IMG/VR virus record: IMGVR_UViG_3300035703_000158
Span: 1-43,692 of that record
Source of the DNA: a virus
Reading direction: 5' to 3' (one strand)
Length of the DNA stretch: 43,692 nucleotides
Positions 1,779 to 43,692 of this stretch are shown in pieces. A program made the position numbers and the translations under genes. The notes beneath the pieces were generated by a model, which was not told the DNA's origin, did not search any database, and saw only the letters and a program-made list of their open reading frames with translations. Position 1 is the stretch's first letter, and each line of letters starts with the position of its first letter.

Positions 1779-2774
1779 TCAGTCCTCCAGGGCGTTGACG
1801 CAGGCGGCCAGCGCATCGGTGTGCAGGTGCAGGTAGCGCTGCACTGAAGCCAGGCTGGTCCAGCCGCCGTAGGCCATCAGCTGATGCAGCGGGATGCCGC
1901 GGCTGGCCAGCTTGCTCGCGCAGGTGTGGCGTGTGGTGTGGATCGACAGGGCACGGTCATCAGCCAGGCCCAGGGCGGCCTTGCCCAGGTTGAACAGGTG
2001 CTGATAGCGGGTGTAGCGGTAGGGCCAGACGCGATGGCCCGGCACTGCAGGCAGGTGCCCCTCCAGGGCCTCGATGGCACGGCGGGTGAGCGGCACTGAG
2101 CGGGGCTTGCCGTTCTTGGTGGCCCAGAAGGTGACGCGCCCCTTCACCAGGTCCACGTCCTGGCCCTTGAGCCGTTCAGCCTCACCCCACCGGCAGGCGG
2201 TCTCGAGCAGGAACACCAGCAGATCGGCTGCTGCAGGCTCACCGATCTGGCGGAAGTAGTGGCAGAAGCGATCGCGCTCTTCATCGCTGATCACCCGGTC
2301 CTTGGTGTTGGTCAGCCGCATCTGTTGCGGCATCCGCGGCAGCTCCTGCAGGTGCCCGTGCAGGTGGGCATCGGAGAGCATGGCTCGGATGGCTGCGACC
2401 TTCTTGTTGATGGTGCTGGGCCTGTTGCCTTTGGCCTGCAGCTTCTGGCGCCAGCCATCAACCAGGGCAGCGGTCACGTCGGTGACAGGGAAGTAATCAC
2501 CGAAGAACTCAACGGCCTCGCGGCTGTAGATGGCAGCGGTGCGCTCGTAGGCAGTGCCGGCCCAGCGGATGCGCATCGACAGCGCCCGAGCCTCCTTGAG
2601 GGTGAACGGTGGCGTGGCTGATGGCTTGGCCTCGCGTTGCAGCAGCAGCTCGAGCAGCTCACGCTTGCGGGCCAGGGCCTCGGCTCTGGTTTTGCATTTG
2701 CCTGTGCGGCGGGTGCCGTTGACGGTGACATCGGCAACCCAGCCATCGGCAACCTTTCGGATGCTTCCTGCCAT
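1779..2774 (-). CDS. int: Tyrosine recombinase / phage integrase
   Basis: This 331-aa site-specific recombinase should integrate and excise the phage at the tRNA-Leu site about 560 bp downstream. The C-terminal catalytic domain shows the first Arg in CRWGEAERLKG (about residue 195), HTTRH at 279-283, Trp305 in YGGW replacing the third His, and the nucleophile Tyr314 in RYLHL. A basic N-terminal arm and a SAM-like core domain (about residues 50-150) precede it. Length is normal for the family. The start is the ATG at 2774 behind a CA-rich leader with no Shine-Dalgarno sequence. The gene shares an orientation with the MarR-like regulator upstream (35-bp gap). Confidence 0.95.
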   Translation of the reverse strand: MAGSIRKVADGWVADVTVNGTRRTGKCKTRAEALARKRELLELLLQREAKPSATPPFTLKEARALSMRIRWAGTAYERTAAIYSREAVEFFGDYFPVTDVTAALVDGWRQKLQAKGNRPSTINKKVAAIRAMLSDAHLHGHLQELPRMPQQMRLTNTKDRVISDEERDRFCHYFRQIGEPAAADLLVFLLETACRWGEAERLKGQDVDLVKGRVTFWATKNGKPRSVPLTRRAIEALEGHLPAVPGHRVWPYRYTRYQHLFNLGKAALGLADDRALSIHTTRHTCASKLASRGIPLHQLMAYGGWTSLASVQRYLHLHTDALAACVNALED

Positions 2775-8122: not shown

Positions 8123-8182
8123 TGCGGCTGGTGGTGGTTGTTGGGAGAGCCCTTCTGCGTCCTCGGATGTAGGAGGGCTCTC
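8123..8182 (-). promoter_or_regulatory. Orphan hairpin + CA-leader cassette in front of terL
   Basis: Read on the minus strand this is GAGAGCCCT/AGGGCTCTC (8174-8182 and 8145-8153; 9 bp, 20-nt loop) followed by CCCAACAACCACCACC and an ATG at 8122. That is the same cassette that precedes left-arm genes, yet the frame behind this ATG runs antisense to 7844-8074 and does not look like protein. On the plus strand the hairpin's 3' arm overlaps the terL Shine-Dalgarno site (AGGAGG, 8171-8176), so it may limit terminase translation. Confidence 0.5.
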
Positions 8183-8185
8183 TTG

Positions 8186-9994
8186 ATGCGATGGGATCCC
8201 CTCCCGCCTGAGCTTTGGCCCTTTCCGCATTTCCTCTGCTACCTGCTGCGGGAACTGAACCTGGCCGACACGCCCACCCTCCGGCAGCTGGAGGTGGCGC
8301 ATTGGCTGGAGACCGGCCCCGACCGTTCCATCACCACCGCTTACCGCGGCCTGGGGAAGAGCTTTGAGTCTGGTGGCTATGCCCTCTGGCGTCTGCGGCA
8401 TGACCCCTTCACCGAGAAGATCCTGATCCCGGCGGCCACCGCGGAGAAGGCTGAAGAGGTGGCCACCTTCATGGCCCGCTGCATCCGCGACGTGGACATC
8501 CTGCGTTGCCTCGAGCCTCGACCTGATGGCCGGTCCTCGATCAAGGCCTTTGATGTGGGGCCAGCGGTGATCGACCAGAGCCCCAGTGTCCGCACTGTGG
8601 GAATCCTGTCGCCATCCCTCACCGGCAAACGCTGCACCCTGGCGCTACCGGACGACATCGAGACGCTGAACAACTCGATCACGCCGCTGAAGCAGGAACG
8701 GCTGGCTCAGGCCGTCACCGAGCTCGAGGCGATCATCAAGCCCGATGACCCGGGGTTTGACCCTGAGGCACCTAGGGATTACACGCAGGCGGGCCTACGG
8801 CAAATCTTCCCAAGACAGATCCGGTATCTGGGAACTCCGCACCTTGAGAGTTCGCTGTACCTACGCCTGGTGCGTGAACGGAACTACGCGATTCGGTTCT
8901 GGCCGGCGCGATTCCCGGACCCGGCTGACCCTGATGAGTGGGATTGCTACGAGGGGAACCTCTCGCCGGAGATCGCTGAAGCGGTGCAGGGCAACCCGGC
9001 CCTGGCGGGGGATCCAACCGACCCTGAGCGCTTTGGCCACCACGAGCTGCTGAAACGCGAAACGCGGATGACGCGGGCTGCGGTGCAGCTGCAGTACCAG
9101 CTCAACTGCAGGCTGAGCACTCTGGATCGCTACCCGATCCGGCTGGGTGATCTGCTGGTGATGGACCTTGACGGCAAGGCCCTGCCGGAGGTGGTGGTGT
9201 GGGCCACGGGGCCTGAGCAGCGCATCCAGGATCTGTTGTGCGTCGGCCTGGGGGCTGATCGCTACTACCACCGTCCAGCGGTGGTGAATGGCTGGGTGCC
9301 GCAGGAGGAGACGTGGCGCTGCGTGTTGGCGATCGACCCATCCGGCCGCGGCAGTGATGAGCTGGCCTGGGCGGTGATTGCTGAGCTGAACGGCAACTTC
9401 TTCCTGCTGGAATCAGGCGGCACCACGCGGGGCTATGAGCCGGAGGTGTTGACGATGCTGGCCAGCAGGGCCAAGCGCTGGCAGGTGAACTACTGCGTGG
9501 CTGAGAGCAACATGGGCGACGGCATGTTCACCGCACTGCTGTCACCAGCGATGGCGAAGGTGCATCCGGTGTCGATTGAGGAGGTGCGTGTCAGCCAGCA
9601 GAAGGAACGTCGCATCGTCGATACCCTCGCGCCATTGGTGCAACAGCACCGGCTGGTGGTGAGCACTGAGTTGATCCGGCGCGATTATCACGACGCGGAG
9701 CGTGATCCAGAAACAGGCCACCAGCGCTCGCTGATGTATCAGCTCAGCCGCATCACGGTGGACCGGGGTTCACTGACCTTTGACGACCGGATCGACGCGC
9801 TGGCGTTGGGTGTCAAGTTCTTCACTGATGCTGCTGCCCAGGATCAAGAGAAAGCCAAGGCCGCCCGTCAGGACGAGCTCGAGGAGACGATGCGGCAAGC
9901 CTGGTTTGATGAGACAGGCGCCAGTATCGACGCACTGGCGATGGGTTGGAAGCCGCAGCCGAAGGGCAAGGCCTATGGCGGTGTCACGCGGTAG
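8186..9994 (+). CDS. terL: Terminase large subunit (T7 gp19-like)
   Basis: The motor-nuclease packages phage DNA into proheads through the portal. The 602-aa protein carries a Walker A-like P-loop, YRGLGKS (about residues 53-59), Walker B LALPDDIE (about 151-158), and an RNase H-like nuclease domain with acidic motifs LAIDPSGRG, CVAESNMGDG and FDDRIDALALG. Length equals that of T7 gp19. The start is the ATG at 8186, nine bases after AGGAGG; the longer frame upstream would include the hairpin. It is on the plus strand, opposite to all structural genes, and its 3' end overlaps the antisense small-subunit gene by 11 bp. Confidence 0.92.
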   Translation: MRWDPLPPELWPFPHFLCYLLRELNLADTPTLRQLEVAHWLETGPDRSITTAYRGLGKSFESGGYALWRLRHDPFTEKILIPAATAEKAEEVATFMARCIRDVDILRCLEPRPDGRSSIKAFDVGPAVIDQSPSVRTVGILSPSLTGKRCTLALPDDIETLNNSITPLKQERLAQAVTELEAIIKPDDPGFDPEAPRDYTQAGLRQIFPRQIRYLGTPHLESSLYLRLVRERNYAIRFWPARFPDPADPDEWDCYEGNLSPEIAEAVQGNPALAGDPTDPERFGHHELLKRETRMTRAAVQLQYQLNCRLSTLDRYPIRLGDLLVMDLDGKALPEVVVWATGPEQRIQDLLCVGLGADRYYHRPAVVNGWVPQEETWRCVLAIDPSGRGSDELAWAVIAELNGNFFLLESGGTTRGYEPEVLTMLASRAKRWQVNYCVAESNMGDGMFTALLSPAMAKVHPVSIEEVRVSQQKERRIVDTLAPLVQQHRLVVSTELIRRDYHDAERDPETGHQRSLMYQLSRITVDRGSLTFDDRIDALALGVKFFTDAAAQDQEKAKAARQDELEETMRQAWFDETGASIDALAMGWKPQPKGKAYGGVTR

Positions 9995-10277
9995 CAGCGT
10001 CGTCTGAGCGGACGATTGGCACCACGTTGCCCTTCTCCTTGAGTGCAGAGAAGTCGAGCTTGCCGGCCATCTTTGAGCGCAGCTTGGCGGTGTCGCTTTC
10101 GGCCAGGTTGGCGGTGACGCTGTTCTGCTTAAGCAGCTGTAGGGCAACGCGCAGGTCGTCATTGCTGGTGGGCTTGAGGTTGCCCTCGTCGTCATAGCCG
10201 CCCTTGTCGATGCGCTCGCGCACAGCGCGGACAACTGAGGTGTGAAGCTCCTCAAGTTCCTTTGCGAGATCGGCCAC
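9984..10277 (-). CDS. terS: Terminase small subunit (T7 gp18-like)
   Basis: This 97-aa, mostly helical protein (AKELEELHTSVVRAVRERID...NDDLRVALQLLKQNSVTAN) matches the size and pattern of T7-type DNA maturase A: an N-terminal helix, a 'DGNLKPTSNDDLRVALQLLKQN' type DNA-binding middle, and a tail ending near a hydrophobic patch (LDFSAL). It would recognise concatemer DNA for TerL. It lies antisense between terL and the endolysin, head-to-head with the latter (27-bp gap), and overlaps the terL end. It must be transcribed by the leftward late transcript reading through the rightward block, or from its own promoter. Confidence 0.75.
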   Translation of the reverse strand: MADLAKELEELHTSVVRAVRERIDKGGYDDEGNLKPTSNDDLRVALQLLKQNSVTANLAESDTAKLRSKMAGKLDFSALKEKGNVVPIVRSDDAATA

Positions 10278-10303
10278 GGTTACATGGGTGGAGAGCTGTC
10301 TCC

Positions 10304-11428
10304 ATGATGCCGATACAGGATGTGCAGTTCACCGATGAACGGTGGCTGCAGTTTTGGGACAACTACAAGGGGCTTGAGCATCAAGCCAAAGCGATCGTCA
10401 AGCTCGGCCAGCAGATCAAGCAGGCGGACCCCGGCTTGTTGACGGAATCATCGGACTGGGTAGGTGACTGGCAGGGCCAGGGGGACATCGACAACACCTG
10501 GGGTGGCATCGAGGCCGCGGCCAGGAAGTACGGCAGTCGTTACCCAGAGCTCGTGGCTGCGCAGTGGAAGTTGGAGAGCGGCAGCGGGAATCTCATGAGC
10601 GGCCGCAATAACCCGTTTGGCCTGAAGGGTCCGGGCAGCGTTAAGCGGACGCATGAGTATGTCAACGGCTGGAGAGTCTCGATCGACGACTCCTTCATCA
10701 ACTTCGACTCGCTTGATGCAGCGGTGAAGTATCTGGTCGAGCGCTGGTATCTCGACTGGAAAGAGCACAAGGGCATCAACCGGGCACCCAATCGCAACGA
10801 GGCGGCCAAGGAGCTGCAACGCCAGGGCTACGCCACCTCGCCGGCCTACAGCGAGCGCCTGATCGCGCTGATGGATCAGGAGCGTCCGATCAAGCTGCCG
10901 GCATTGCTCAAGAACCCGCTGTCGGTGAAGTGGCAGAGCCAGCTCGACAACAAGAGCGGCACTGGCTACCGCGAGTGCTTCTCCTCCAGCTGCGCCATGT
11001 TGGCAATGTTCTGGGGCAAGGTTGCCAATGACGATGCCTTCAACAACGTCCGAAGCAAGTACGGCGACACCACGTCAGCCGAAGCGCAGCTGGCTGCACT
11101 GCGGGCCCTGGGACTGAAGGCCGACTTCCACACCAACGGCACCCCTGCGGCCCTGGAGCGTGAGATCAACCAGGGCCGGCCTGTGGCAGTTGGGTGGCTG
11201 CATCAAGGGCCCGCCACGGCGCCCAGGGGTGGCGGCCATTGGACCGTGATCATTGGCTACACCGATGCCGCCTGGATTCACAACGACCCCAACGGTGAGG
11301 CACTGCTCGTCCAGGGCGGCTACAGCAAGAACACCAAGGGCGCTGGCCTGGCCTACAGCCGCAAGAACTGGAACCCCCGTTGGATGCCCGGTGGCAGCGG
11401 CGGCTGGTATCTCACCTGCCGGCCATGA
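10304..11428 (+). CDS. Two-domain endolysin: glucosaminidase-like + C39-like peptidase
   Basis: The product is 374 aa. Residues about 65-190 look like a GH73/flagellar-type N-acetylglucosaminidase, with the candidate catalytic Glu91 in WKLESGSGN and the NNPFGLKG motif. Residues about 205-374 look like a papain-fold C39-type peptidase: Cys225/Cys230 in YRECFSSSCAM, His in GGGHWTVIIGY (about residue 312) and NDPNGE. No signal peptide is visible, so it would need a holin. The start is the ATG at 10304 after a GGAGAG site; an ATG directly follows it. The combination cuts both glycan and peptide parts of peptidoglycan. A bacteriocin-type leader peptidase is unlikely because no transporter is present. 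Confidence 0.75.
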   Translation: MMPIQDVQFTDERWLQFWDNYKGLEHQAKAIVKLGQQIKQADPGLLTESSDWVGDWQGQGDIDNTWGGIEAAARKYGSRYPELVAAQWKLESGSGNLMSGRNNPFGLKGPGSVKRTHEYVNGWRVSIDDSFINFDSLDAAVKYLVERWYLDWKEHKGINRAPNRNEAAKELQRQGYATSPAYSERLIALMDQERPIKLPALLKNPLSVKWQSQLDNKSGTGYRECFSSSCAMLAMFWGKVANDDAFNNVRSKYGDTTSAEAQLAALRALGLKADFHTNGTPAALEREINQGRPVAVGWLHQGPATAPRGGGHWTVIIGYTDAAWIHNDPNGEALLVQGGYSKNTKGAGLAYSRKNWNPRWMPGGSGGWYLTCRP

Positions 11429-12171: not shown

Positions 12172-12423
12172 TCAGGCTAGGGCCGTCTCAATTTCTTCCC
12201 GGTTGCTAAATCCCCAGGCTGCAGCAGCACCCGCGTTCCACTCTTTCCGGATGACGGGGGCGACGTAGCCGTTATCACCCGCCTGCAGGTTTCGGTCGTA
12301 GTTCTCGGGATAGACCGCATCATCGAAGGTGATGTAGTCGTTCAACAGGCTGTTGAGAAAGGCGGTGCGTTCAGCGCCAGCCTCGGTAGCGACCAGATCG
12401 GACGGAGTGTTGATGATCAGCAT
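12172..12423 (-). CDS. Hypothetical 83-aa protein overlapping the DGR reverse transcriptase
   Basis: The ATG at 12423 overlaps the RT stop by seven bases (ATGCTGA), so translation should be coupled to RT. The protein is acidic (LLNDYITFDDAVYPENYDR) and ends NREEIETALA; an aromatic and Gly/Ala middle (VAPVIRKEWNAGAAAAWGFSN) is distinctive. No family recognised. It could be an uncharacterised accessory factor of the retroelement or an unrelated late gene that simply follows it. Confidence 0.6.
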   Translation of the reverse strand: MLIINTPSDLVATEAGAERTAFLNSLLNDYITFDDAVYPENYDRNLQAGDNGYVAPVIRKEWNAGAAAAWGFSNREEIETALA

Positions 12424-13391
12424 GGTGCAGCAAGCCCCAGAGAGACAAGGCCATTCTGTCCGTCACCATGGCGCAGATGCCCCATCCAGGCAATCTGCGA
12501 GCATTTCCACCCTTCGTAATCTCCGTGCTGCAGCAACAACTTGAGTTTTCTGCGCTGGCGAATCATGGACTGACGTTTGATTAGCTTGAACTTGCGGCGG
12601 ATGCGAAAGCCGCAGAAGGTGATGCCGCAAGCCACTGGGCCTAAACTCCACTTGCCAATCCGCTGTCCCATTTCGTTGGCGACAAAGGAGCAAATCTCAT
12701 CCTTGAGCTGCAGCCCATCGTCTTTGCTCTGCACAATCACAGCCGCATCATCCATGTAGCGCACGAAGCTGCCGATGCCCTTTGATGCGATGAAGCGATC
12801 CAACCGGCCGCCCCAGTAGTTGGCGAAGGTCTGGCTGGTGAGCGCACCAATCGGCACGCCACCGGGCTGCACGCTCAGCACCTGCTCGATCAACAGCAGC
12901 GTGCGACGGCAGGTGAGCTTCTTGCTCAAATGCACCAGCAGCAGATCCTGGGGGATGGTCGGGAAGAACTTGCTGAAGTCCACGTGCAGCACCCAGCCAT
13001 CAGGGTTTTGCCGCATCAGCTGCTGCATCCGGTTCACGCATTTGTGCGTACCCAATCCCACCCGACAGGCGAACACCTGGGGCATCATCGCGGCGTCGAG
13101 GATCGGCCCCACCACCTGGATCAAGGCGTGGTGCAGCACGCGATCACGAAAGCTCTGGCAGCTGATTGTGCGCTTCTTGGGGTCGATGATGTCGAACTGC
13201 AGCTGCGGATCAGGCCGCCAGCCGCCTTCAATCAACCGCAGCTGCAGCTGCCGCAGATTGGCCAGGTAATACTCCTTGAACCGCAGGTAGGAGCTGCTGT
13301 AGGTCTTGCCGCGCCGCGCCTCTGCATAGGCTGCAAGCAAGTTATCCCACTGGTAGATCTGTTCGTACAGGTTGCGAAACTTCTTGCCCAT
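12417..13391 (-). CDS. DGR reverse transcriptase
   Basis: The 324-aa enzyme has the retroelement RT core: motif 3 VDFSKFFPTIP (about residues 140-150), the DGR-diagnostic motif 4 IGALTSQ (about 182-188; introns and retrons typically have QGxxxSP), the catalytic YMDD (about 211-214) and motif 5-6 (GITFCGFRI). Group II maturase and endonuclease domains are absent, as in DGR RTs. It would copy the TR transcript error-prone at adenines and drive cDNA transfer into VR. The ATG at 13391 lies 157 bp after the end of TR, a spacing like that in the BPP-1 element, where the spacer is part of the RT-associated RNA. Confidence 0.95.
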   Translation of the reverse strand: MGKKFRNLYEQIYQWDNLLAAYAEARRGKTYSSSYLRFKEYYLANLRQLQLRLIEGGWRPDPQLQFDIIDPKKRTISCQSFRDRVLHHALIQVVGPILDAAMMPQVFACRVGLGTHKCVNRMQQLMRQNPDGWVLHVDFSKFFPTIPQDLLLVHLSKKLTCRRTLLLIEQVLSVQPGGVPIGALTSQTFANYWGGRLDRFIASKGIGSFVRYMDDAAVIVQSKDDGLQLKDEICSFVANEMGQRIGKWSLGPVACGITFCGFRIRRKFKLIKRQSMIRQRRKLKLLLQHGDYEGWKCSQIAWMGHLRHGDGQNGLVSLGLAAPC

Positions 13392-13668
13392 CAGAAGGTA
13401 GCGGCAGGTTTCGATGATCTACTCCCTGCCATTGCCACCACTCGGCCCTGAGTTCGCCGAAGCCGGACTTGATGGCTGGCACCTGGTTGGCACCGGCCTG
13501 CTGCCCCATGGAAACAGCAGAGCGTAGTGGTGTTTGGCAGTGGCCACGGCCGCAAAACGCGCCCCAATGTTGTTGTTGGAGTTCCAAGGAGTGTTGTTCC
13601 AGTTGGCACAACGTGAGCCGGAATTGGATCCGTTGTTCCAGTTGCCCCCGAGGATGACGGCGCTCCCA
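13392..13668 (-). ncRNA. DGR template RNA (TR plus spacer)
   Basis: The whole Avd-RT gap is occupied by the template repeat (13548-13663) and a 156-bp spacer reaching the RT start. In characterised DGRs the transcript of exactly this span is the structured template and primer for cDNA synthesis. A frame is open through it (13419-13742) but encodes the Asn-rich template and is not expected to be a protein. Confidence 0.6.
13548..13663 (-). repeat. DGR template repeat (TR)
   Basis: This 116-bp segment aligns without gaps to VR at 14121-14236. On the coding strand it has 27 adenines, mostly in 10 AAC codons and one AAT. VR differs at 21 of the 27 adenines but at only 1 of the 89 other positions. 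The 3' end (GGGGCGCGTTTTGCGGCC) is identical in both and is the IMH-type initiation segment. TR lies between Avd and RT, the canonical location. Confidence 0.95.
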
Positions 13669-14073
13669 TCAAGCCCGCTCCAGCTTTGCGCATTTCTTCT
13701 GTTCTTGCAGCCGTTTGATCCAACCGCCGAGCATGGCGCCAACCTCGCCCACCAGGGCCTGGGCTGTTTCCAGCTGGTGCTCGGTCATCAGCTTGCGTTT
13801 GTGGTGGACCATGAAGCGCATCAGCAGCCGCAGCTGGCTCAAGCTGCCGTCGAGCACATAGCAGCGGCTGAGCTGGTTGGCCTTGATGGCGTCGTTGAGG
13901 TGCTCGGCCACCAGGAAGAGCTGCCGGATCAGCAGCTCTCGGAAGGTGCCGTGCTTGCGGGGGATCGTTTGCGCGAGCGGGTAGAGGTAGTCGATCACCC
14001 GCTCGTAATTCTCGACCATGTAGAGGCCATGAGCCTCCTTGGATGGATCCGCGGAGGCTCGCTTGCTTGTCAT
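13669..14073 (-). CDS. avd: Avd-like accessory variability determinant
   Basis: This 134-aa helical protein (YERVIDYLYPLAQTIPRKHG, LLIRQLFLVAEHLNDAIKAN, LSQLRLLMRFMVHHKRKL, LVGEVGAMLGGWIKRLQEQ) has the four-helix-bundle layout of the Avd/S23 family; Avd forms a positively charged pentamer that binds RT and template RNA. The start is the ATG at 14073, chosen over a frame extending into VR. The gene lies between the variable protein and TR with the same orientation. The stop adjoins the TR 5' end. Confidence 0.85.
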   Translation of the reverse strand: MTSKRASADPSKEAHGLYMVENYERVIDYLYPLAQTIPRKHGTFRELLIRQLFLVAEHLNDAIKANQLSRCYVLDGSLSQLRLLMRFMVHHKRKLMTEHQLETAQALVGEVGAMLGGWIKRLQEQKKCAKLERA

Positions 14074-14083
14074 GCGGAGAGTC

Positions 14084-14097
14084 GGCGCTGCCGCGCC
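14084..14097 (-). other. GRNA-tetraloop hairpin downstream of VR
   Basis: The minus strand forms GGCGC-GGCA-GCGCC: a 5-bp stem with loop GGCA, which fits the GRNA tetraloop described for DNA hairpins that promote retrohoming downstream of VR in phage DGRs. It begins 23 nt after the VR end, within the gap between the variable-protein stop and avd. No matching hairpin follows TR, as expected for an element marking the recipient copy. The stem is shorter than in BPP-1. Confidence 0.55.
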
Positions 14098-14099
14098 TC

Positions 14100-15194
14100 C
14101 TAAGCAAGCACCAGGTGCCCGGCCGCAAAACGCGCCCCAAAGCTGCCGGCGGAGAACCAAGGAGTGTAGCCCCAGTCGGCACAACGCGAGCCGGAAAGGG
14201 AACCGAGGTTCCAGCCGCCCCCGAGGCAGACGGCGCGAGAGAAGCCGCTGTCGTAGACGTCACCGCGACCTTCAGTGACCCCTGTGGTCCATGCGGCCGG
14301 GTTGCCGGCCAGGGCGTAGTCAGCGCCCCATTGCCACATCACGCCAGTCGCCTGCGCCAGGCCGAACTTGCTCGCTCGCTCCCAGGTCACGGTGCCTGGA
14401 TCAGAACCACGGCTGGTGGCTTCTGGGGCGCCATAGGCGGCCGCCGCAAACTCGGCATAGAACGGCAGCCGCTTGCCAAAGCTGGCCGCCATCTCAGAGG
14501 CCTCGAACCAGGTGAAGCTGCCGTAGGTGGTGCTGCCGTTGCCGCCGTATTGCGCGGGCACCAGCGGCGCGCTGGAACCGTCAGCGATGGTCAGGCCGAT
14601 CTTGCTGCTGGGCACCGCAGAGAAAGTGGTGCCGGCATAGCTGGTGGCGCCTGCCAGGTACAGGTCAATCCAGAACGCATCGTTGATGCAAGCCATCCCG
14701 CGAGGATCCGGGCAACTAGGGCGCCAGGTGAGATCCCAGAGGCTGAACTCAAGGATTTCGGCTGCTGCTGTGGGGCTGCCGTTGTTAATGGCTGTGGGGC
14801 GTCCGCTGGGGATGTAATGGAAGCCACCCACCACCGAGCCGCCGGTGGCTCCTGCCGGCGCTGTTGTGAAGCTGGCATCGGCCACCAACGCCCCCGTGGT
14901 GGGGTGCTGCCAAATGGCGTAGTCGGTGTTGTTGCTGAAGCTGCCGGGCATCGTCACGGCAGTGGCGGCGAGATACCACATCCCGCCAAGCACAGAGTTG
15001 GCAGCAATGCTCAGGGCTGTGGCTGCTGTTTTCTGGAATAGCGAGCCGCGGTGACCTGACGGACGGAAGTTCTGAAACGCAGTCGAGCCTGCGATCTGGA
15101 CGGGAACAGGCCCGCCCCCGGGGCCAATCACGGTCGTGTTCCCGTAGAGCGGGTAAACAGTCATGGAAGTACGGATAAGGTCCGGTGTTTCCAT
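14100..15194 (-). CDS. DGR variable protein, C-type-lectin/FGE-like, receptor-binding tip candidate
   Basis: The 364-aa protein ends in a formylglycine-enzyme/C-type-lectin-like domain (about residues 150-364: FTWFEASEMAASFGKRLPFYAEF, GVMWQWGADYALAG, GDVYDSGFSRAVCLGGGW, GSRCADWG, GARFAAG), the fold used by Mtd and other DGR targets. Its last part (residues about 320-358) is VR, with the hypervariable residues on the GGW...GARFA ligand surface. The N-terminal half is Gly/Ala/Thr-rich beta structure that may attach to the fibre. It follows the tail-fibre gene by 52 bp. A CTGCA-family motif ends one base before the ATG at 15194; an internal ATG 10 codons on is possible. Role inferred: adhesion to the host surface. 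Confidence 0.9.
   Translation of the reverse strand: METPDLIRTSMTVYPLYGNTTVIGPGGGPVPVQIAGSTAFQNFRPSGHRGSLFQKTAATALSIAANSVLGGMWYLAATAVTMPGSFSNNTDYAIWQHPTTGALVADASFTTAPAGATGGSVVGGFHYIPSGRPTAINNGSPTAAAEILEFSLWDLTWRPSCPDPRGMACINDAFWIDLYLAGATSYAGTTFSAVPSSKIGLTIADGSSAPLVPAQYGGNGSTTYGSFTWFEASEMAASFGKRLPFYAEFAAAAYGAPEATSRGSDPGTVTWERASKFGLAQATGVMWQWGADYALAGNPAAWTTGVTEGRGDVYDSGFSRAVCLGGGWNLGSLSGSRCADWGYTPWFSAGSFGARFAAGHLVLA
14121..14236 (-). repeat. DGR variable repeat (VR)
   Basis: VR is 116 bp, ungapped against TR at 13548-13663, with 22 differences. Twenty-one are at template adenines (for example AAC to GGC, CTC, TAC, TTC, GCC, AGC); the one other change lies beside the 5' edge. Non-adenine template positions are otherwise unchanged. 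Confidence 0.95.
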
Positions 15195-15245: not shown

Positions 15246-16130
15246 TCAGGCCAACTTGCGAATCAAGACATCGGCAAAGACATCGGTGGTGCCGGTCGCT
15301 GCGGTTGGAAGACCCTGGCCATAGCTTGTCCCAATAGATGTCGAGACGTCTGCCCAGTGTTCTAGGCGCACGACAGATGTCGAGGCAATGACAAACCTGG
15401 CCCGCACATGGCTCTTGGTAGTTGATCGCAATGTGTAGAGGCTTCCGGTGGATGTGTAGCCAGCAAACTCGTTGCTGCCATACGCAATCGACGCGCCTGA
15501 TCCGATGTTGAGGCGCACCTGGTTGGCACCAGCGACAAATGCAATAGCGTAAGCATCGGCTTCATAGGTTCCGGCAGGAAGATAAATGTCTCCCCCTGCC
15601 ACCGTGGCCCCTGGGATCGTGGCAGTTGTCACATCATTCAAGATCCTTTGGGTCCAAGTGCTCGCAGGGAGTGAGCCGCTGGTGTTGACTTGACGAGCTT
15701 GCAAGATTTGCGGCAGGCCAACGGAAGCGAGCGCCGCCGCGGCATCCGACTGCGCCTGGATTGCTAGCGCAACAGCGGCGTCAACTCGATCTTGCTGTTC
15801 TTGAACAACAAACAGGTTCTGGAGATCAGCCGTGTCCAGATCTGTGGCGATTAAATTGCTGCCATCGTTCCAGTCAACGAGCCTGGCATTGCTAGGCGTC
15901 TCTCGTTTGATTGTTAGCGTGACGGCGATAGCGGGCGCAACTGTTGTTTGCACCTGCGTGTCGCTAACCCAGGTGAAGTCGCTGCCCTCAGCCAGTTGCG
16001 TGGCGTAGCTGCCAGTGGCTGGCACATAGCCCGTGTAGAGCTTGACGTGCGCTTTCAGCAGATACGGGAACGGGACCGAGAAGGTCGTCGTGGACCCGTC
16101 GCCCGCGTATTGCGCGTATGAGAAGGGCAC
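15246..16130 (-). CDS. Tail fibre (T7 gp17 N-terminal-like)
   Basis: Residues 1-140 match the N-terminal particle-binding domain of T7-type fibres (MPFSYAQYAGDGSTTTFSVPFPYL...VTLTIKRETPSNARLVDWNDGSNLIATDLDTADLQNLFVVQEQQDR), followed by an Ala-rich helical linker and a beta-rich C-terminus of about 150 residues. At 294 aa it is about half the length of T7 gp17 (553), so a distal tip must come from another protein, plausibly the variable protein encoded next. The start is GTG at 16130, eight bases after a CTGCA-family motif. Confidence 0.85.
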   Translation of the reverse strand: MPFSYAQYAGDGSTTTFSVPFPYLLKAHVKLYTGYVPATGSYATQLAEGSDFTWVSDTQVQTTVAPAIAVTLTIKRETPSNARLVDWNDGSNLIATDLDTADLQNLFVVQEQQDRVDAAVALAIQAQSDAAAALASVGLPQILQARQVNTSGSLPASTWTQRILNDVTTATIPGATVAGGDIYLPAGTYEADAYAIAFVAGANQVRLNIGSGASIAYGSNEFAGYTSTGSLYTLRSTTKSHVRARFVIASTSVVRLEHWADVSTSIGTSYGQGLPTAATGTTDVFADVLIRKLA

Positions 16131-40793: not shown

Positions 40794-43205
40794 TCACGAG
40801 AAGCAGTGTGGGTTCTGGCCGATCTCTCCATGGCACAGATCTCCCACCTGCGGTGCGGGCGGAAGGTTCTTAAGCCCTGCAGCATCTGCGATCTGGGCCG
40901 CCATCTCCGCTAACCAGTCAGGCGCGTAAAGCCCCCTGAGCTCGTCATGCAGGGTGTGATGCAGCCAGCCTGCACGGGATGGAATTGTCGCAAAGCAGTC
41001 GTGATTGGTTAGGAGCTGCGCACCTTGCTCTCCACTCTTCTCAATGACCAGCTGGCACAGGGCCGCATCAAACGAGTGGACCGTGTTGGCGGTCACGGCC
41101 CGGTTGGTGCTGCGTGCAGACAGCTCTCCTTCTTTGGCCTCGTCAGACCACGCCTGCCACCGCCGCCGGCCATGGGCCAGGGTCGTGACGGTGGTGCGTG
41201 GGTCCAGGGCATCGCCCAGTCGGATCGGCAGGCCCATTGGGCTGGTCCACTGCACCGCCTTGCCCTCGGCCAGCACTGTCCTGGTCACGGTGCGCAGCCA
41301 GGTCTGCAGATCGAGGCAGCTCTTGAGCTCAGCCCCCAGCAGCACGCCCAGCTTGCGGGCCAGGTATCGGGCCGGGGCCAGGTAGGCGTACTCCCACTGG
41401 TGCAGCTTGAGCCCGGCCTGCCGTTCCTCCAGCGCTGCCACCAGCCCCTCGACCACACCCAGGAACTGGGCGCCATAGATGGTCGTCATCACTGGGCCTT
41501 TGCACAGCGAGCGATCGACGCCGAACTCAAGCCACAGCTGGGCCATGCGCTGCTCGCGCTCGGTGCCGTTGCTCAGGTCCAGCCTCAGCAGTCGCTGCAG
41601 TTCGCCTGCGATGTGGCTGTAGAGATCGCGGTGGCTTTTGCCGGCGATGTTGGTGAGCTTGGCCAGCCTGCGATCACGCACCAGGGCAGATGCGATGCCG
41701 ATGCCGCTGCAGGTTTGATCGAACCGCACCGGTGTGGTGCAGCTGCTGCTCGGGTCAGCCACCTGCTGCGCAATGGCACGGCACAGCTGCAGGTACTGCC
41801 ATGGATCCTTGGCGTCACGCCACAGCTCAAGCCGATCCAGCGGCGCCTCGGCTGCACCGCACATCTCCATCAGGTGATTGCGGCCCCACTCCAGTCGGGC
41901 TTGCCAGTTGCCCCGGATCCCCCAGTGGCTGGCTGCACCTTTGAGCAGCCACTCAAACGCCTCAACCGAGCAGGTCTCGCCGTGGCTGAAGTGAACGGCA
42001 GCCTTCTCCCAGTCCGGGCCCTGGTGGGTGGCGTAGCGGTTGGAGGTGTAGAGCCGGCCCCGGAAGTCACTGCAGTAGGCGAACCAGATCGGCATCCCGG
42101 CCACCTCCTCGCACTGCCGGATGGTCTGCTCAATCCGGTTGCGTTCTGCTGCGCCCTCGCAGCGGTCGCGCTGCGCCTTCAGGCGTTGTCGCTGGTAGTC
42201 CTTAAAGGCCTCAGACCCGAGCAGCTCCTGCGGCCGCGGCGGATCCTCGAGCGGGTCGCGGGTGACAGGGAACAAGCCGCGGATGTTGTGGTCCCAGGCG
42301 CAGCGCTGCAGCTCGACCATCCCTGGGTCAATGCGCAGCTCTTGCTGTTGCAGCTGGTTCACGGCCCTGAGCACTGGGGCCAGCGCCGTTGGCGTCAGGT
42401 GGCTGAGGTCCAGCCCGGCACGGCTGCGCACCAGCGGCTGCTTGTTGTCCAGGTGCCCACCGCCGTGCATCCCCTCCCACGGCCGGGGCGGCACCAGCAT
42501 TGGCAGCCGGCGTGCCTGAAAAGGCCGCGGCGGGTTGGCTTTGATCACAGCCTCCGCTGTTGCAGTGGGCCGCACGGTGCAGCGCAACCGGCCATTGCGG
42601 CTTGTGGTGCCCACCTCCACTAGGTCGGTGTTGGCAAGGATCACCTGCAGCAGCAGGTTGCCCACCTCCACCTTCTCTGTGTGTGTCCAGCCGCTGCAGT
42701 CCAGGCGCAGCTGCTCGAGCACCTTGGTGTCGCTGAGCGCCCTTGCCCCTTTGCGCTTGCGGATCAGCCGCATCAGGTCGGGGCTGGCCTGCTCAATCCG
42801 CCCGGCCTTGAGCTCATCCTGCAGGGCCTTGCCGATGGCACCGGCCAGGCGTCGCTGCTCAGGGCGCTGGCTGATCTGGTCGATCACCACACCCAGGGCG
42901 ATGGCAGCAATGGACCTTGGGCCTCGGTTGGTGACGTGCAGCAGCAGAGGCCAGGCGGCGAAGTGCGGGCCGGGCTTGCTGGGGTTGGCCAGCAGCTCTT
43001 CAAGCAGCAGGCCCAGGGCCACCGTCACCTGCTCGGCGCACTGGGTGAAGAGGGCCCGGCCGTACTCAGTGACGCTCTCTTTGCCCTGCGCTTTGAGCTT
43101 GGCTCGGGCATTGATCGCATCCCATTTCGCCCGCTCTCTTTCCCTCTCCTCCCTCTGCTTCTGCAGTTTGTCCACAGGGGTGGACGCAGGATTTCTGGGT
43201 TTCAA
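40794..43205 (-). CDS. Phage single-subunit RNA polymerase (T7-like), complete
   Basis: The 803-aa polymerase is complete. Catalytic motifs: A, RFDQTCSGIGIASALVRD (T7 Asp537 equivalent, about residue 495); B, DRSLCKGPVMTTIYGAQ (Lys631 and Tyr639 equivalents, about 566-574); C, NHDCFATIP (Asp812 equivalent, about 734). T7 RNAP has 883 residues; the N-terminal promoter-binding domain is shorter here. It should read promoters that host polymerase ignores, and the CTGCA-family motifs are the obvious candidates. The start is a TTG at 43205; no ATG in frame lies nearby. Its 5' part is duplicated at 1-1058. Confidence 0.95.
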   Translation of the reverse strand: MKPRNPASTPVDKLQKQREERERERAKWDAINARAKLKAQGKESVTEYGRALFTQCAEQVTVALGLLLEELLANPSKPGPHFAAWPLLLHVTNRGPRSIAAIALGVVIDQISQRPEQRRLAGAIGKALQDELKAGRIEQASPDLMRLIRKRKGARALSDTKVLEQLRLDCSGWTHTEKVEVGNLLLQVILANTDLVEVGTTSRNGRLRCTVRPTATAEAVIKANPPRPFQARRLPMLVPPRPWEGMHGGGHLDNKQPLVRSRAGLDLSHLTPTALAPVLRAVNQLQQQELRIDPGMVELQRCAWDHNIRGLFPVTRDPLEDPPRPQELLGSEAFKDYQRQRLKAQRDRCEGAAERNRIEQTIRQCEEVAGMPIWFAYCSDFRGRLYTSNRYATHQGPDWEKAAVHFSHGETCSVEAFEWLLKGAASHWGIRGNWQARLEWGRNHLMEMCGAAEAPLDRLELWRDAKDPWQYLQLCRAIAQQVADPSSSCTTPVRFDQTCSGIGIASALVRDRRLAKLTNIAGKSHRDLYSHIAGELQRLLRLDLSNGTEREQRMAQLWLEFGVDRSLCKGPVMTTIYGAQFLGVVEGLVAALEERQAGLKLHQWEYAYLAPARYLARKLGVLLGAELKSCLDLQTWLRTVTRTVLAEGKAVQWTSPMGLPIRLGDALDPRTTVTTLAHGRRRWQAWSDEAKEGELSARSTNRAVTANTVHSFDAALCQLVIEKSGEQGAQLLTNHDCFATIPSRAGWLHHTLHDELRGLYAPDWLAEMAAQIADAAGLKNLPPAPQVGDLCHGEIGQNPHCFS

Positions 43206-43239
43206 TTCGCATTTTCGGGCGCTTTCAGCAGTAATTCCA

Positions 43240-43253
43240 CCCCACCTGTGCAG
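43240..43253 (-). promoter_or_regulatory. CTGCA-type motif upstream of RNAP (copy 2)
   Basis: Identical to 1093-1106 (minus strand CTGCACAGGTGGGG), 35 bp before the RNAP TTG start. Confidence 0.45.
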
Positions 43254-43294
43254 AGATGGCTAACTCGTTACTGCAGCCAATGAATACGAGTGCT

Positions 43295-43308
43295 CTGCAG
43301 GGGTGGAA
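43295..43308 (-). promoter_or_regulatory. Inverted partner motif upstream of RNAP (copy 2)
   Basis: Identical to 1148-1161 (minus strand TTCCACCCCTGCAG), placed between RNAP and the tRNA-Leu fragment. Confidence 0.4.
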
Positions 43309-43317
43309 TGACATTTT

Positions 43318-43361
43318 TCGGATTTTAAGTCCGCTGCGTATGCCAATTCCGCCATGCTCCC
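43318..43361 (-). other. attP-like 5' half of tRNA-Leu(UAA), copy 2
   Basis: Same tRNA-Leu 5' half as at 1171-1214 with one substitution (A1195 versus G43342), which changes the D-loop GGUAUA to GGCAUA. The anticodon arm is unchanged. The two units may therefore match slightly different host alleles. Confidence 0.8.
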
Positions 43362-43482
43362 GCCTGTGACCGCAAGGGATCTCAGGGATTCAGCCGTCTG
43401 CCGAGACTGCCGAACCTAAGCAGTCTGCCGCAGCGAGCAGGCAGAGAAACCGATCCGGTGGACGCATCCACAACAACAGGCG

Positions 43483-43692
43483 TCACTCACCGAAGACGGG
43501 CAGCGGGGCAGGGCCAGCCGGTTCAGCCCGCACACCGCCGGGTGAGAAGGGGTCCATGCGCAGGCGGGTGCGGTAGTTCCCGTTGAAGTCCGGGATGGTG
43601 CAGCCAGTGAAGGGGGCGTTCTGCGGCGTGATCTCGACGCCGTAGTTCCAGCCGCAGGCCGGGCCATAGAGCTGGGCGATCAGGGTCAGCGC
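43483..43692 (-). CDS. Second copy of the 76-aa att-side protein (5' cut by window edge)
   Basis: The C-terminal 69 residues of a homologue of the 1336-1566 product, ending VFGE instead of VFSQ. The frame is open to the window edge, and replacements are few (Glu/Gln, Leu/Pro, Val/Ile), which supports the reality of both copies. Confidence 0.6.
   Translation of the reverse strand, partial: ALTLIAQLYGPACGWNYGVEITPQNAPFTGCTIPDFNGNYRTRLRMDPFSPGGVRAEPAGPAPLPVFGE

Follow-up and report, generated by a model that had tools for sequence, protein, structure and literature searches.

A complete, probably working diversity-generating retroelement in a T7-like cyanophage, on a module that appears to recombine between cyanophage backbones

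Diversity-generating retroelements (DGRs) are already known in phages. The closest relative of the element described here is the tropism-switching DGR of BPP-1, in which the genes and the template repeat (TR) are arranged as mtd-avd-TR-brt-bbp4. The DGRs of Pseudoalteromonas phages ACA1 and ACA2 and of Vhmlvirus follow the order antireceptor-avd-reverse transcriptase (RT), end with a small gene after the RT and differ between isolates in the variable repeat (VR) (PMC10612066). The hairpin of phage DGRs has been described as a GC-rich stem of 7-10 bp closed by a GRNA loop (PMC3240598), and DGRs have been reported, on a coarse scale, to pass from one genome to another (PMC8144416). In the open literature, subscription papers being outside the search, no paper was found that describes a DGR in cyanophages, Autographiviridae or Synechococcus phages. 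Here we analyzed the viral record IMGVR_UViG_3300035703_000158 over its full 43,692 nucleotides (the window), which carries on the minus strand, at 12172-15194, a BPP-1-type DGR cassette with all parts present. We conclude with high confidence that this cassette represents a BPP-1/Mtd-type DGR, complete and probably working, and that its module recombines between cyanophage backbones and is sometimes trimmed to the variable protein (VP) gene and a small companion gene, orf84.

The cassette is arranged in the order VP-hairpin-avd-TR-RNA-RT-orf84 (Table 1), the same gene order as in BPP-1, including the small open reading frame after the RT. VP, Avd, RT, TR and spacer RNA are all homologous to their BPP-1 counterparts, with identities from about 38% (RT and VP, the latter at 38.5% to Mtd) to 46% (Avd). 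VP matched Mtd-P1 of BPP-1 (PDB 1yu0) over residues 49-363, covering the second and lectin domains (E 4e-52), and the Pfam family mtd_2nd (1.4e-19). Avd was recognized by Pfam bAvd (1.8e-20) and by NCBIfam NF033474 (DivGenRetAVD; 84.5 bits, cut-off 80), and the spacer between TR and RT by Rfam RF03022, Phage_DGR (69.1 bits against a gathering threshold of 50, E 5.9e-11). This spacer is strongly conserved among relatives at a mean column identity of 86%, BPP-1 included, where it is partly conserved. The hairpin stem was paired in 100% of cells among 28 distinct sequences, one pair being exchanged from G-C to C-G in 10 of them, and its loop, GGCA, fits GRNA. The gene directly upstream of VP encodes a tail fibre, the presumed attachment point. 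A first-pass annotation of this DNA had claimed a complete DGR in a minus-strand array after the tail fibre, and VP, Avd, TR and RT were indeed found in the order it gave. Its VR, placed at 14121-14236, extends over 14120-14236, and its list of parts, correct as far as it went, lacked the hairpin, the Phage_DGR RNA and the bbp4-like reading frame.

The differences between the two repeats are biased to adenines of TR. TR and VR align without gaps over 117 nt with 22 mismatches. Of the 27 adenines in TR, 21 are at mismatched positions (Fisher p = 8e-17), and the 27 lie in 16 codons, of which 11 read AAC or AAT. The same bias was found in the relatives, for which 31 distinct TR/VR pairs from loci L002-L046 were compared: 480 of 840 TR adenines differ in VR (57%) versus 25 of 2,787 other bases (0.9%). 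Replacement of A by any base creates a stop in none of the codons of the 31 TRs examined, the window TR included. Among the 25 differences at other bases, 18 are T-to-G; a T following a changed A was itself changed in 7 of 66 cases and a T following an unchanged A in 0 of 54, perhaps reflecting linked misincorporation. Certain TRs lack adenines that their siblings retain (L014 4729-4845, compared with L013 785-901; also L021 and L035), a pattern that entry of mutated cDNA into TR would produce.

A total of 45 viral loci encode an RT 75-91% identical to that of the window, and near-identical cassettes among these relatives allowed recent changes to be located. Two loci from one metagenome, L018 and L019, have 3,006 bp in common at 99.6% and do not differ in TR or RT; 8 of their 13 differences lie within the 117 nt of VR, all at TR adenines, versus 5 in the 2,889 nt outside. 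For L033 and L032, which differ at 7 positions over 6.8 kb, the counts are 4 of 104 in VR, again all at TR adenines, versus 3 of 6,698 outside, and for L045 and L091, 17 of 42 differences lie in VR, 16 of them at TR adenines. In the DGR-less pair L099/L098 the VR-equivalent region shows 0 differences in 118 nt versus 124 in 7,145 nt elsewhere. Since near-identical cassettes differ mainly in VR, and nearly always at TR adenines, VR has been rewritten in nature in this clade, indicating that the DGR works in close relatives of the window phage. The hypervariable VR and invariant TR expected from the first-pass annotation were thus seen in close relatives, L018/L019 and L033/L032. One VR, at about 4218-4274 of L026, is shortened relative to that of the near-identical contig L024 (2895-3011), which looks like the outcome of retrohoming with an internal stretch skipped.

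Based on the BPP-1 system, the molecular steps may be pictured as follows. The RT-Avd complex would copy RNA of TR plus spacer into cDNA, inserting random bases opposite template adenines; with the hairpin and the GC-rich 3' end of VR as guides, the cDNA would take the place of VR in the 3'-terminal part of the Mtd-like gene. The receptor-binding tip would thereby vary at about a dozen of its surface residues with no change to TR, and trimming to VP-orf84 would fix the binding protein. For BPP-1, an E. coli assay with RT, Avd, TR RNA and a reporter has been reported (PMC12875486). By analogy with BPP-1, such diversification would be expected to benefit host range.

Loci in which the retroelement is missing were found by VP search, with orf84 lying directly 3' of VP or after fragments. 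At four junctions (S-CBS1/S-CBS3, L071, L082 and L080) the deletion is clear, as VP and hairpin are retained together with fragments of avd or RT. In the cultured Synechococcus siphophages S-CBS1 and S-CBS3, for which VP is 60% and 76% identical to that of the window, the hairpin is joined to the last ~45 codons of RT; in L071, with VP 89% identical, the start of avd is fused to the end of RT. L012, L027 and L046 are relatives of the S-CBS phages that carry the whole DGR, and L027 matches S-CBS1 at ~95% on both flanks. The DGR has therefore been lost repeatedly among the relatives, including the cultured S-CBS1 and S-CBS3. Other VP-orf84 loci (L079, L084, L093, L096, L098-L101) are free of DGR remnants and could represent either losses or loci that never had one.

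The companion gene orf84 starts within the end of RT, overlapping its stop codon, and is strongly conserved, with 19-20 invariant columns. Its profile detected BPP-1 bbp4 at 17.4 bits, the best of 2,000 shuffles reaching 8.1. Although the fold is predicted with high confidence (predicted local distance difference test, pLDDT, 93.9), no significant match was found by fold search in PDB and BFVD. Homology to the post-RT gene of ACA1 and VP58.5 was also considered and found no support. The position directly after RT, as for bbp4 after brt in BPP-1, would suit a gene that belongs to the retrohoming machine and not to the receptor-binding module. We regard such a role as unlikely, because orf84 is retained beside VP in S-CBS1/3, L071, L079, L082, L084, L093 and L096-L101, loci that have lost avd, TR and RT or hold them in broken form. 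The RT-side breakpoints of three relics, L071, L082 and S-CBS1/S-CBS3, end just before the orf84 start, at window-equivalent positions 12467-12500, that is, within 33 nt and 44-77 nt before that start, as if the translation-start region of orf84 had to be kept. On the simplest reading, orf84 would partner the Mtd-type protein instead of RT. On a wider model, to which we give about even chances, VP and orf84/bbp4 would form a two-gene Mtd-type receptor-binding module that fits both T7-like and siphovirus tails; cyanophages would exchange this module and toggle it between a hypermutating state, with avd-TR-RT, and a fixed state without them, and orf84/bbp4 would be essential to Mtd-type proteins as a partner overlooked so far, such as a tail adaptor or an assembly chaperone.

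The cassette was detected on three kinds of backbone: T7-like contigs with RNA polymerase and integrase (G001, G003, G007, G011, G012 and G016), S-CBS-type siphovirus contigs (L012, L027 and L046) and lambda-like siphoviruses with a gpJ gene (G009, G004, L030, L041 and L042). The kinship of RT does not track that of the backbone. Relative to the window, L010 is 90% identical in RT and 43% in the major capsid protein (MCP), and L020 is 94% identical in MCP and 82% in RT. When backbone labels were placed on the RT tree, 8 changes were counted, the minimum being 3 and the average for shuffled labels 9.6. In the otherwise unlike contigs G009 and G010, only a 3,006-bp module is common (99.6%), ending near the end of orf84. 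The module thus behaves as one that has moved by recombination between T7-like and siphovirus backbones of cyanophages, and it adds to the coarse-scale report (PMC8144416) a fine-scale case of DGR transfer inside one phage guild.

Several observations weigh against a complete, working and mobile cassette. Only 5 perfect pairs make up the hairpin stem, compared with the 7-10 described (PMC3240598), and the loops GCCA, GTCA and GTTA of relatives fall outside GRNA. The AlphaFold2 model of VP reached a pLDDT of 36 and was left unused. No second VR of the window phage was found in viral contigs by exact TR search, and no lysogen in genome contigs searched by RT and MCP. Assemblers may also mis-join long near-identical modules, and both ends of the exchanged block are visible only in some contigs. 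If such errors were general, the presence of one cassette on different backbones would reflect mis-assembly and not transfer. An indication of this kind is L003/L004, a single 58.6-kb contig in which the module lies twice (99.5% over 4.2 kb) between differing T7-like flanks, a repeat of the sort that misleads assemblers; this double module is either an assembly join or a very recent transfer. As a general explanation, however, mis-assembly is improbable, since discordance is also observed on the RT tree at identities of 80-95%, too low for mis-joining to be likely, and in the cultured S-CBS1 and S-CBS3 with their intact-DGR relatives L012, L027 and L046.

The activity of the window copy is inferred from its relatives. 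A recently inactivated DGR, intact in anatomy but without retrohoming in the window phage and with VR fixed, would agree with the repeated loss among relatives and with the single VR known for this phage. We consider this improbable, because RT, Avd, TR, RNA and hairpin are each found intact in the window, and in sibling cassettes whose parts are intact, change is confined to VR. The window copy is thus probably active, to judge from its sequence and its siblings.

The RT carries the motifs IGALTSQ (of the IGxxxSQ type) and YMDD, and its best relative of solved structure is the BPP-1 RT (8ub7, E 3.6e-68, 233 bits), far above group II RTs (E 1e-17) and retron Ec86 (0.16), in agreement with the DGR type assigned at first pass. 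A retron, group II or defence enzyme (DRT) beside an unrelated duplication, for which PADLOC and NCBIfam group II/DRT models give above-chance scores, is ruled out by scores and cassette anatomy: the NCBIfam matches are far under their cut-offs, the adenine-only TR/VR differences, Avd, Phage_DGR RNA and Mtd target all argue against it, and the TR/VR pattern and RNA family match refute it for practical purposes.

The backbone is closely related to that of Synechococcus phage S-SRP02, with identities of 93.6% for the terminase large subunit (TerL), 91% for MCP and 67% for RNA polymerase, and with an integrase and the same gene order. This kinship and the Pfam matches confirm the T7-like backbone with integrase and single-subunit RNA polymerase recognized in the first-pass annotation. 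Its assignment to cyanophages is upheld by S-SRP02 and by a 7.8-kb contig of a Cyanobium metagenome-assembled genome (MAG), found with an MCP 95% identical in a search of genome contigs that also gave a Sphingomonadaceae MAG contig at 65%; RT, VP and integrase were not seen in the examined stretches of these two contigs. From these gene relationships, the virus is predicted to infect freshwater picocyanobacteria. The window encodes an integrase and a MarR-like gene, and the phage is likely temperate on the basis of the integrase gene; no tRNA marking an attachment site was found in the 43,692 nt. The ends of the window, 1-1545 and 42148-43692, match each other in an ungapped 1,545-bp alignment at 95.1% identity, so that the unique length is ~42.15 kb, like that of S-SRP02, and the record contains a portion of the RNA polymerase gene in two copies. 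The record therefore probably spans the whole ~42.15-kb genome, with ends assembled from two variants. Beside the terminase gene, at 10262-11428, lies a gene for a protein joining glucosaminidase and C39-like peptidase domains.

Table 1. Parts of the DGR cassette and selected backbone genes in the window.
Feature	Position	Strand	Evidence
Tail fibre, T7 gp17-type N-terminal domain	15246-16130	-	Pfam Phage_T7_tail 1.6e-27; PHROG tail fibre families
VP, Mtd-like receptor-binding protein; C-terminal C-type-lectin region bears VR	14100-15194	-	1yu0 and mtd_2nd matches
VR, ~39 codons near the VP 3' end	14120-14236	-	81% identity to TR
Hairpin GGCGC-GGCA-GCGCC, 3' of VR; target-recognition element of phage DGRs	14084-14097	-	Conserved pairing
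Avd, accessory variability determinant	13669-14073	-	NCBIfam NF033474, Pfam bAvd
TR	13547-13663	-	Pairing with VR
Phage_DGR RNA, spacer after TR	13397-13523	-	Rfam RF03022
DGR RT	12417-13391	-	BPP-1 RT match; IGALTSQ, YMDD; PHROG 1423
orf84, 83 amino acids, bbp4-related	12172-12423	-	Profile match; phrog_30757
Single-subunit T7-like RNA polymerase (backbone)	40794-43205	-	Pfam RNA_pol 3.8e-45
Tyrosine integrase (backbone)	1779-2774	-	Pfam Phage_integrase 2.1e-19
T7-type terminase large subunit (backbone)	8138-9994	+	93.6% to S-SRP02

Relative to the described systems, the new elements are the evidence of activity in close relatives, the passage of the module from one cyanophage backbone to another, the DGR-deleted cultured isolates and the conserved companion gene. 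The last of these draws attention to a companion of Mtd, known in BPP-1 as bbp4; neither a described function nor a paper was found for it in the open literature, subscription papers again lying outside the search. Natural pairs with and without a DGR are now available: S-SRP02, the nearest cultured T7-like relative, without one, and S-CBS1 and S-CBS3, with the same target gene and the DGR deleted. With such pairs in a laboratory host system, the worth of hypermutating a receptor-binding protein can be asked. S-SRP02 (PMC8790148), a freshwater cyanopodovirus of 42.1 kb, has the same backbone as the window phage; no DGR or Mtd was found in it, and six other genes occupy the slot after the tail fibre. 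It has no annotated RT and is absent from the phages with a related RT among the matches listed. S-CBS1 and S-CBS3 resemble the window in VP, hairpin and orf84 homologue and differ from it in their siphovirus backbone and in the deletion of avd, TR and most of RT. The DGRs of ACA1, ACA2 and Vhmlvirus reside on a P2-like backbone and include an extra gene, gp45, for which no relation to orf84 was seen. In contrast to BPP-1, the window DGR is carried by a T7-like backbone with its own RNA polymerase and a picocyanobacterial host predicted from its relatives, and its hairpin has a shorter stem.

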